From: an uncultured Synechococcales cyanobacterium
GTDB taxonomy: Bacteria > Cyanobacteriota > Cyanobacteriia > CAIUCS01
Length of the DNA: 42,224 nt
Assembly: GCA_903897715.1 (NCBI GenBank)
Contig: CAIUCS010000118.1
Location: forward strand, 1 to 42,224
Reading direction: 5' to 3'
The notes under the pieces were generated by a model. The model saw only the letters and a program-made list of their open reading frames with translations, searched no databases and had not been told where the DNA came from. The translations under genes were made by a program, and so were the position numbers. This document shows positions 4,181 to 41,408 of the stretch, piece by piece. Numbering within the stretch: the first letter of the stretch is position 1; the number at the start of each line of letters is the position of its first letter.

Positions 4181-4287
4181 AGAACATCCCAGTTTTGTGA
4201 ATTTGCCTTCATCCCCCAACCCCTTCGCCCATTTTGGATGAAGGGGAGCCGGATTTAGGGTGAGGGTCGGGAAGGTGAGATGTCCCC
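4181..4287 (-). repeat. MITE-like repeat, family A, copy 4 (inverted, divergent)
   Basis: On the minus strand this shows the same order of blocks as the other family A copies: CCTCACCCTAAATCC, then GGCGAAGGGGTTGGGGGATG. Its ends retain degenerate terminal sequence (ACATCCCAGTTTTG on the plus strand at 4184-4197 and GAGATGTCCC near 4278-4286). No target duplication is visible. It is the most diverged copy. It sits directly upstream of carB, so it could affect the carB leader or promoter. The rest of the 4125-4575 spacer shows no gene. Confidence 0.5.
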
Positions 4288-10269: not shown

Positions 10270-10304
10270 TATTAAGATTTTTGGTTTAATTGCATCTACC
10301 TTTT

Positions 10305-11576
10305 ATGAATTCATTTCCATCCTGGGTTTTCCCGAATCATCCCTTGATTCAACGTCAATCCATTCAACCCAATGACCCAACCAACGATTTGGTAGAGCCA
10401 TGGTCAGATTCATGGCCCCATCCCCCCCTTTACCAGCAGCAAGACCCTGGTAATGAATCGGTTCCTGTTCCATCTGAATTGAGTCAGCTAGGGGATTGGT
10501 TTAAGGAAGTCCTATCCTTCTATCAGTGGTCGCAATTTCCAGGGTTGGACTATGTTTTTTTAGCACTGTTGAGTTTGACAACAGTCTTGTCATCCTTTAC
10601 AGAGCCTGTGACAGCTACTCTTCGCCCTGGCGATCGCGGTGAAGACGTGTTTACATTGCAGTCAAGTTTACAAAAAGCGGGTTATAACCCAGGACCCATC
10701 GATGGGGTGTATGGCAAACAAACTCAACAGGCAGTTCGTCAATTTCAACGGGATCGCAAGTTGCTCTCCGACGGTATTGCCGGCAACCAAACCCTGGGTA
10801 AATTAAAAAGTGGTTCTACTTCCATGGTCGGGGGTCCCAGTATTACAAAAGAAGTAGATGTGATGGAACTTCAACAATTATTGACAAACCAGGGATTTTT
10901 TACTGCCCAGATCAATGGTATTTATGGACCACGGACTCACAATGCTGTCAGAAAAGCTCAACAATCCTTTGGGCTTCTGGTGGATGGAATTGCTGGACCA
11001 CGAACCATGGCAGCACTGAGAAGATCCCAATCATTGACACCTAAAAAAAATCCGAATCCCATCCCGCAAAATTCACTTGGAACAACAAGCACTATTAATG
11101 TATTTGAGTTGCAAGACCTATTGGCTGAGCAGGGTTTTTTCAACGGACCTAAAAATGGAATTTACGGTCCATTGACCCGTAAAGCAGTTAGGGATGCCCA
11201 AGCAGCCCATGGATTGGTGGTGGATGGAATTGCTGGACCACGAACCATGGCAGCTTTACGCAATCAAGTCTCCGCTACCTCCCAGGGTAATCCAAGGACG
11301 AATCCCACCCCCCCAAGTTTACTCACTGTACCGGAACCACCGCCAGAAAATCTGGCTGACACATTGGCGGCTGCAAACACAGAAAATAATAGTCCTGATG
11401 TTTTATATCTACAACAGTTACTACATCGGAATGGATTTTATCAAGGTTCTATAGATGGTATTTTTGGTCAACGCACCCGTAATGCTGTCTCCAAGGCTCA
11501 AAGAACCTTAGGGTTGGTAGTAGATGGAATCCCCGGACCTAAAACGTTGCAAGCATTAAAGAAAAATGTAAATTAA
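10305..11576 (+). CDS. Membrane-anchored protein with four peptidoglycan-binding repeats
   Basis: The protein is 423 residues. The first 75 are polar and Pro/Gln-rich, followed by one hydrophobic segment at about 82-98 (VFLALLSLTTVLSSF), then four PG_binding_1 domains. Each has the pattern LQxxLxxxGFxxxxxDGxYGxxTxxAVxxxQ, then DGIAGPxTxxAL. The repeats begin near residues 106, 183, 263 and 355 and are joined by Pro/Asn/Ser-rich linkers. The arrangement suggests a single-pass protein with its repeats in the periplasm on the wall. No hydrolase domain is visible, so it is a binder or anchor rather than an enzyme. The ATG at 10305 was preferred to a TTG at 10290. Two repeats share an identical 37-bp DNA stretch. 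Its stop overlaps the stop of the next gene. Confidence 0.85.
   Translation: MNSFPSWVFPNHPLIQRQSIQPNDPTNDLVEPWSDSWPHPPLYQQQDPGNESVPVPSELSQLGDWFKEVLSFYQWSQFPGLDYVFLALLSLTTVLSSFTEPVTATLRPGDRGEDVFTLQSSLQKAGYNPGPIDGVYGKQTQQAVRQFQRDRKLLSDGIAGNQTLGKLKSGSTSMVGGPSITKEVDVMELQQLLTNQGFFTAQINGIYGPRTHNAVRKAQQSFGLLVDGIAGPRTMAALRRSQSLTPKKNPNPIPQNSLGTTSTINVFELQDLLAEQGFFNGPKNGIYGPLTRKAVRDAQAAHGLVVDGIAGPRTMAALRNQVSATSQGNPRTNPTPPSLLTVPEPPPENLADTLAAANTENNSPDVLYLQQLLHRNGFYQGSIDGIFGQRTRNAVSKAQRTLGLVVDGIPGPKTLQALKKNVN
10978..11014 (+). repeat. 37-bp perfect direct repeat inside a coding sequence, copy 1
   Basis: It is identical to 11218-11254, exactly 240 bp (80 codons) downstream, and encodes the VDGIAGPRTMAA segment ending domains 2 and 3 of the peptidoglycan-binding protein. 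The flanking DNA of the two domains is diverged. Confidence 0.85.
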
Positions 11577-14834: not shown

Positions 14835-15007
14835 ATCTATCAGATGGTTGACTGACAAAAGTTGTACGCCCTCCCCCCCAACCCCTCTCCCAGGGGGCGA
14901 GGGGAGCCCATCCACCCCTCCGGTTCCCTCTCCCATCGGGAGAGGGCTAGGGTGAGGGCTTTCGGGGTTTTGGCTGAGACGTTTTGTCAGTCAATCAGAT
15001 CTATCAG
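14835..15007. mobile_element. MITE, family B, copy 1, with 9-bp target duplication
   Basis: The element spans 14844-14998 (155 bp). The left end reads ATGGTTGACTGACAAAA and the right end, inverted, CTGATTGACTGACAAAA. It is bounded by the perfect direct repeat ATCTATCAG (14835-14843 and 14999-15007). The interior is GC-rich, contains inverted blocks (CCCTCTCCCATCGGGAGAGGG) and has no coding capacity. A nearly identical copy lies at 41246-41399 with a different 9-bp duplication, which shows that both moved by transposition. A 9-bp duplication and ends beginning CTG are compatible with an IS4-like transposase acting in trans; that assignment is inference. The rest of this 14789-15171 spacer holds no gene. 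Confidence 0.9.
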
Positions 15008-36517: not shown

Positions 36518-36564
36518 AATACTTTTCTCAGTCAGAAAGAAGATTGGGGGTGATTGGATTCATA

Positions 36565-36600
36565 AAATAATTACCCTATGGTGCCATAGGGTAATTATTT
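36565..36600. terminator. Perfect 17-bp stem hairpin between pstS and pstC
   Basis: The arms 36565-36581 (AAATAATTACCCTATGG) and 36584-36600 are exact inverse complements separated by only two bases. On the minus-strand transcript it is followed by TTATTTTATG-like U-rich sequence, so it could act as a leaky terminator or as a barrier to 3' decay that leaves more pstS than pstCAB message. This fits the need for excess binding protein, but the role is inference. Confidence 0.75.
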
Positions 36601-36624
36601 AATCAACTGACGAGTTGAGTAAGA

Positions 36625-37689
36625 CTAGGGCTTGATTTGATTGACTTCAGATAACACCCTTTGAATCACTGAAGATGGAATGCGGGTAAAGTCAAGGCTC
36701 TCATTAAGGGATTGACCTTCAGTTAGTACATAATTCACCCATCTTTTTACGGCTGCAGATTGGGCAGCGTCAGGATATTGACGGTAAAGAATCATCCAAG
36801 TCACACCAGTGATGGGATACCCTGCATCTGGGTCGCCATCAAAAACTTGGAAACTGGCTGGAAACTTGAAGGTGGAAACGGCTTGGTTGGAAAGTGCCAA
36901 GGAGGGAGCGAGCCACTGTCCCTTGGAGTTTTGAACTTCAGCGATCGCCAATTTATTTTTATCAGCATAGGATTGTTCCACATAGCCAACGGTACCAGCA
37001 GTGCGTCTAACCAATGCGGCAACACCAGCATTTCCAGGTCCTTTGAGGGGGTCAGTAGTCCAATCTGGAGCAGTACTCACACCGATCCGACCCCTGAAGT
37101 AGGCGTTGACAGCACTTAAATGATTCACCCAATGATACGTTGTTCCACTGCCATCCGCACGCACTGCGGTTCTAATTTCAGAGCCAGGTAAATTAATCCC
37201 AGGATTATCCTTGACAATTTTCGGGTCATTCCAGCGGGTGATGCGACCACTAAAAATATCAGGTAAAACTTGTCTGCCCAAACGTAGTTTAGACACCCCG
37301 GGTAAATTATAAATGGGAACAACGGAACCACCAGCAGTGGGAACCAAAAGGATTCCCCGTTGTCCTGCTACCCCTTCTCTCTTTTGGGCATCAGTCATTA
37401 ACGCATCTGTACCACCAAAGCTAACAGTACCAGCGATCACCTGACGAACACCGCCGCCACTCCCGATCGCCTGATAGTTTACTTGTATGTTAGGGTTTTT
37501 AGATTGAAATTCACGGATGTAGCGTTGATACAATAAAGCGGGAAAGGTTGCACCTGCTCCACTTAATGTAACTTTTTGCTGGGCATTCACCACAGTATTC
37601 GCAGTCATCGCCGCAATAGTTCCAGCAGCCAGTGCAGTGGCTGCAAATGCTGCTAAAACACCACGACGGGCAATTTGATTGAAGTACAT
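36625..37689 (-). CDS. pstS: Phosphate-binding protein PstS
   Basis: This is the periplasmic receptor that captures phosphate for PstCAB. The 354-residue precursor has an N-terminal signal (IARRGVLAAFAATALAAG, cleavage probably after VVNA near 36; the RR pair would allow Tat or Sec export). The mature protein begins QQKVTLSGAGATFPALLYQRYI, the phosphate-loop strand typical of PstS, with further contacts at SGGGVRQVIAGTVSFGGTDA and in AVRADGSGTTYHWVNHL. It is the first gene of pstS-C-A-B. A Pho-box-like triple repeat lies about 405 bp upstream. Confidence 0.97.
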   Translation of the reverse strand: MYFNQIARRGVLAAFAATALAAGTIAAMTANTVVNAQQKVTLSGAGATFPALLYQRYIREFQSKNPNIQVNYQAIGSGGGVRQVIAGTVSFGGTDALMTDAQKREGVAGQRGILLVPTAGGSVVPIYNLPGVSKLRLGRQVLPDIFSGRITRWNDPKIVKDNPGINLPGSEIRTAVRADGSGTTYHWVNHLSAVNAYFRGRIGVSTAPDWTTDPLKGPGNAGVAALVRRTAGTVGYVEQSYADKNKLAIAEVQNSKGQWLAPSLALSNQAVSTFKFPASFQVFDGDPDAGYPITGVTWMILYRQYPDAAQSAAVKRWVNYVLTEGQSLNESLDFTRIPSSVIQRVLSEVNQIKP

Positions 37690-41236: not shown

Positions 41237-41408
41237 GGTTCCCATCTGGTTGACTGACAAAGTTGTACGCCCTCACCCCCAACCCCTCTCCCAGGGGGCG
41301 AGGGGAGCCGATCCACCCCTCCGGTTCCCTCTCCCATGGGGAGAGGGCTAGGGTGAGGGCTTTCGGGGTTTTGGCTGAGAAGTTTTGTCAGTCAATCAGG
41401 GTTCCCAT
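41237..41408. mobile_element. MITE, family B, copy 2, with 9-bp target duplication
   Basis: The element spans 41246-41399 (154 bp) and is bounded by the perfect direct repeat GGTTCCCAT (41237-41245 and 41400-41408). The ends are CTGGTTGACTGACAAAG and, inverted, CTGATTGACTGACAAAA. The interior differs from copy 1 (14844-14998) at only a few positions, and both copies have the same orientation in the window. It lies in the divergent spacer between the serine hydrolase and the TIGR03943 gene, ending 61 bp before the latter's ATG. The rest of the spacer shows nothing else. Confidence 0.9.

Follow-up and report, generated by a model that had tools for sequence, protein, structure and literature searches.

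A 155-bp repeat bounded on both sides by the same nine bases raises three questions, namely what kind of element it is, what moved it, and what it carries. The repeat lies in a window of 42,224 nucleotides, the whole stretch of DNA analysed here, which is contig C118 of a cyanobacterial genome assembled as 2.86 Mb in 207 contigs. The first-pass annotation had described it as a MITE with a perfect 9-bp target-site duplication (TSD), together with a near-identical second copy bearing a different duplication of its own. The boundaries proposed for the element are exact, and each copy has its own 9-mer on both sides (Table 1). The most probable answer to the three questions, to which we give a probability of roughly 93%, is that the element is a MITE in which ends of about 20 bp, belonging to a 1.3-kb cyanobacterial IS4-type insertion sequence (IS), enclose two BoxC-type motifs. 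This reading brings together the observed copy number, matching ends, TSDs, an empty site, an IS4-type transposase and a triplex-motif sequence.

Table 1. Parts of the two element copies in the window, and target duplications of complete insertion sequences with the same ends in other cyanobacteria.
Feature	Location	Strand	Details
MITE copy 1	14844..14998	+	155 bp; left half C-rich; 4 differences from family consensus
Copy 1 left 9-bp TSD	14835..14843	.	ATCTATCAG; same 9-mer at 14999-15007
Copy 1 right 9-bp TSD	14999..15007	.	ATCTATCAG
Copy 1 left TIR	14844..14863	+	ATGGTTGACTGACAAAAGTT; consensus CTGGTTGACTGACAAAAGTT; base 1 mutated
Copy 1 right TIR	14979..14998	-	inward reading CTGATTGACTGACAAAACGT; family consensus ...AACTT
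Copy 1 triplex motif 1	14869..14903	-	minus-strand reading CCCTCGCCC-CCT-GGGAGAGGG-GTTGG-GGGGGAGGG
Copy 1 triplex motif 2	14926..14958	+	CCCTCTCCC-ATC-GGGAGAGGG-CTA-GGGTGAGGG
MITE copy 2	41246..41399	+	154 bp; 97% identical to copy 1
Copy 2 left TSD	41237..41245	.	GGTTCCCAT
Copy 2 right TSD	41400..41408	.	GGTTCCCAT
Copy 2 triplex motif 1	41270..41304	-	placed by alignment with copy 1
Copy 2 triplex motif 2	41327..41359	+	
IS TSD	L149, Nodosilinea nodulosa (PCC 7104)		GCTTGATAC
IS TSD	L151		GCGGCATCC
IS TSD	L152		CTCAACGCC
IS TSD	L153, Moorena bouillonii		GGCCAAGCT

The shared inverted-repeat ends (TIRs) described earlier are real at the level of the family, and the right end of copy 1 is canonical (CTGATTGACTGACAAAA, read inwards). 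At the left end, copy 1 departs from that description: it begins ATGGTTGACTGACAAAA against the family consensus CTGGTTGACTGACAAAA, with A as base 1 where the family has C. The TIRs are 20 bp long, and 18 of the 20 outer consensus positions are Watson-Crick paired, with one G-T pair in addition.

An element that has moved should recur between different duplications, and a genome-wide search with a table of flanking 9-mers bears out the expectation of many such copies. With up to two mismatches allowed, the genome contains 192 matches to the end motif CTGRTTGACTGACAAA and five to a reversed-pattern control, which corresponds to some 90-100 elements. At least 40 near-complete copies with 95-100% identity occur among the BLAST matches listed. 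Members of the family are 98-161 bp long, with no transposase and no coding capacity. Seventy-two distinct elements were read, and both flanks were available for 71. The flanking 9-mers are identical in 38 of these, one base off in 13, two off in four, and three or more off in 16, so that 55 of 71 match within two mismatches; the chance expectation for identical 9-mers is 4^-9 per pair. Two elements (L047, L095) reach 9/9 or 8/9 once the element start is moved by one base and, with this shift allowed, 14 of the 71 have no recognisable TSD. In 86% of cases positions 1 and 9 of the target site are G or C, and the centre is A/T-rich.

Sites without the element have also been preserved. When the copy on C59 (L015) and one TSD are removed, the joined flanks align to a paralogue on C34 at 80% identity over 149 bp, and the alignment is gap-free at the junction. 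Similarly, the copy on C12 (L039) is nested within another repeat, uninterrupted copies of which span the junction at 84-85%. Among the 63 sites with sufficient flanking sequence, none splits an open frame so as to leave more than about 35 codons on the shorter side, and the surviving insertions are thus intergenic or at gene edges. Copy number, TIRs, TSDs, the empty site and the lack of coding capacity all agree with the first-pass description of a non-coding MITE. As a separate observation, the 9-mer GGTAGCCCG occurs crosswise, to the right of the C164 copy (L096, C164:6503) and to the left of the C104 copy (L012, C104:15425), which suggests either recombination between copies or misassembly at the repeat.

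The age of the family is a different matter, and here the earlier statement that transposition was recent goes too far. Within the 155-bp class (n=51), copies differ from the consensus at a mean of four positions and from one another by 5%, and divergence from the consensus is 4.0 for copies with a perfect TSD versus 4.5 for those without a TSD; no intact transposase was found. The family is better seen as a past burst, now perhaps without its motor, than as clearly recent activity. One copy on C121 (L070:1-913) appears to have been split by an IS3-like element with a visible orfA-like protein. The orphan end that this leaves was considered as part of the partner IS and rejected as a MITE interrupted by the IS3-like element.

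The IS4-like partner proposed by the first-pass annotation is supported. One end match in the source genome, at C117:15068, has a non-MITE interior and leads into the first part of an IS4-type element. This copy has the same left end as the MITE, carries an in-frame TGA close to its beginning, and is cut by the contig end. Its protein fragment, used as a query, identified 26 loci in named genomes. Autonomous IS with MITE-type ends and an IS4-type DDE transposase are present at L147, L149 and L151-L153, and in four other cyanobacteria (L149, L151-L153) the IS is complete, about 1.32 kb long, with MITE-like ends of 20-21 bp and 9-bp TSDs. The left TIR of copy 1 corresponds to the left end of the complete elements over about 20-21 bp, and, on the right, the consensus TIR and the end of the L151 IS are identical for 20 bp. 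The transposases (382-408 residues) score above the gathering threshold of PF01609 in three of four proteins, and match NF033591 (IS4_2) at E = 1e-32 to 1e-38 with 112-132 bits, under its curated cut-off of 152. Residues Y252, R255 and E259 of the Y-(2)-R-(3)-E-(6)-K signature are invariant; where the signature has K, these proteins have an invariant Q266.

A full-length IS with matching ends exists in other cyanobacteria; in the source genome only truncated or decayed copies were seen, its matches besides C117 being fragments or distant. Loci on C147 and C94 were examined as possible partners and rejected as distant IS4-like fragments (about 29% identity), with no matching ends found at C147 or at those C94 loci. 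The 207-contig assembly, which may have lost a multi-copy IS, yielded no intact transposase gene.

These findings fit the following route of mobilisation. The IS transposase, acting in trans, would bind both ends of the MITE and excise it. The element would then be inserted with a stagger of 9 bp into targets whose first and ninth bases are G or C. The same stagger, with G or C at target positions 1 and 9, is characteristic of IS10 and IS50. Mobility in the source genome has probably slowed or stopped, because the IS copies found there are all truncated or decayed, though the assembly is fragmented.

What the element carries was missed by the first-pass annotation. Judged by sequence, its interior is two divergent intrastrand-triplex (BoxC/TM) motifs. 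The published TM pattern is CCCTCNCCC-N3-6-GGGNGAGGG-N3-GGGNGAGGG (Holder et al. 2015, PMC4666352); motif 2 of copy 1 matches it exactly, whereas motif 1, on the opposite strand, differs in its second loop, where it has 5 nt rather than 3. TM is known from more than 260 genomes and is very abundant in cyanobacteria, and triplex folding of the E. coli motif has been demonstrated by CD, NMR and footprinting (PMC4666352). The E. coli motif was reported never to occur with mobile elements or mobility functions, and the means of its spread was left open (PMC4666352). We found no earlier report of triplex motifs together with MITEs in the open-licence literature.

The source genome contains 70 perfect hairpins of the form CCCTCTCCC-loop-GGGAGAGGG. 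Of the 50 listed, at least 41 belong to the MITE family (tallied by position and loop), five to a second repeat family, and four to neither. The second family has GGGTGCATCCCAATTTT-type left ends, GGGATACTC-like right ends and CCCTCACCC/CCCTCTCCC triplex blocks. It is present in the window at 198-~330, 6208-~6308 and 19156-~19295 (plus strand) and at about 4210-4287 (minus strand), with further genome copies on C27, C28, C60 and C114. Elsewhere in the window, 10858-11554 is taken up by three repeats, each about 157 bp long and peptidoglycan-binding-like, within one predicted protein (10290-11576), two of them with 70% and 63% identity to the first. An inverted repeat at 36559-36606 (23 bp, 2-bp loop) adjoins a phosphate-binding-protein-like gene (36625-37689, minus strand), just upstream of its stop-side end, and is possibly a terminator.

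Length variation within the MITE family involves the core. The 110-bp class is one near-perfect palindrome, a form associated with hairpins in which one arm has been converted by the other; forms of 135-143 bp have no third strand, and forms of 98-100 bp also exist. Many of these variants keep intact TSDs. Hairpins would be expected to generate variants of these lengths. The triplex core may be regarded as a passenger whose hairpins would make the element internally unstable, and which, by riding in MITEs, would spread around cyanobacterial genomes a motif that otherwise has no vehicle.

Strong folding and a place outside genes might also be expected of a conserved structured RNA or a cis-regulatory hairpin under selection, with the repeats as a by-product, and the first-pass annotation had itself named a structured RNA as the alternative to consider. 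The predicted folds of both strands are far more stable than those of shuffled sequences (z about -5.4), and the retained copies lie within or border intergenic space. The inverted repeats alone, however, are sufficient for such folding. No Rfam family reached its gathering score; the sub-threshold matches were mostly to GC-rich animal microRNA families and were taken as chance. In the 155-bp class (51 copies), mutations that affect the strongest stem leave 16 pairs broken and four as G-T, with none compensated, and substitution density is similar in core, linker and spacers, giving no sign of selection on structure within this class. Together with the TSDs and the empty site, these results make selection for an RNA or regulatory hairpin scarcely credible. 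The abundance of GC-rich, intergenic palindromes likewise recalls REP/BIME-like sequences moved by a RAYT or an IS200/IS605-type single-strand transposase, and BoxC was historically counted among the E. coli palindromic repeats (PMC4666352). The clear 9-bp TSDs and the long TIRs matching a DDE-transposase IS make this the least credible origin of all. HUH transposases are not known to leave a target duplication of this kind. It is also highly improbable that the partner belongs to another IS family that merely has ends in common: with no intact IS here, the link depends on foreign IS copies and one truncated copy, but the ends are identical over 20-21 bp on both sides, the TSDs are of equal length, and a remnant with the same left end persists in the source genome.

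A further question is how the triplex motif and the IS4-type ends came together. Of 145 genomes from the class, 80 contain the strict triplex motif (none in the control) and 70 contain the end motif of IS4 type (controls practically zero). IS4-type ends surround triplex cores at L117, L118, L121, L135, L143 and L214, and unrelated cores at L238, L243 and L248. Ends and cores consequently look interchangeable, since a different core can sit inside the same IS4-type ends. At L238, L243, L248 and L280, the IS4-type ends have a GTAGGTTGGGTT...AACCCAAC-type core. Conversely, a triplex core lies between unrelated inverted ends, TAGACCTCTTGC in G019/G035 and TTATAGTCA in G005, and between GGGTGCATCCCAATTTT ends in the source genome. 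Arms were counted only where free of masked bases (TAGACCTCTTGC in L274, L275, L277 and L279; TTATAGTCA in L269). In a crude automated test of one locus per genome, flanking inverted arms exceeded the 95% control at six of 29 motif loci, and it is therefore not claimed that all motifs sit in MITEs. That the BoxC-type motif is dispersed in cyanobacteria chiefly inside several MITE families, unrelated to one another and modularly assembled, is a tentative proposal, somewhat short of even odds. The motif could instead be the mobile unit itself, entering or jumping between MITE families by strand switching or nested insertion, as the same core between unrelated ends (TAGACCTCTTGC, TTATAGTCA, GGGTGCATCCCAATTTT), the unrelated cores within IS4-type ends and the arm-by-arm conversion in the 110-bp class might suggest. 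A bare motif with a boundary or duplication of its own was never seen, though, and the low count of flanked loci in the crude test tells against this as well; we consider it unlikely. If modular assembly into MITEs is correct, MITE capture would explain how the triplex motif came to be distributed among bacterial genomes.

As a MITE the element is ordinary, a new family of the IS4 kind that follows a principle already well understood. Its payload joins two known classes of repeat and provides a concrete vehicle by which the triplex motif could spread, and one that can be tested. The family is also a natural experiment on hairpin-driven instability, with 110-bp palindromes and third-strand deletions in copies that bear TSDs.

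With the cyanobacterial IS4-family IS (PF01609/NF033591, about 1.32 kb), the MITE has 20-21-bp ends and a 9-bp TSD in common, but it lacks a transposase gene and its sequence resembles the IS at the ends only. Like Nezha and other cyanobacterial MITEs (PMC3049150, PMC10969869), it is short and non-coding, with mobilisation by a resident IS proposed; Nezha, compared by description rather than by sequence, is tied to ISNpu3-like elements. The 187-nt MITE of Microcystis aeruginosa PCC 7806 (PMC11448079) also forms a stem-loop and was linked to an IS by its ends and TSD length, but has GGCTCTTCG ends, 8-nt duplications and an ISL3-family partner. The TM/BoxC/PIT element (PMC4666352) has the form CCCTCNCCC-loop-GGGNGAGGG-loop-GGGNGAGGG, which motif 2 reproduces; unlike the E. 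coli TM, the motif is present here as two divergent copies that form the core of a mobile element.
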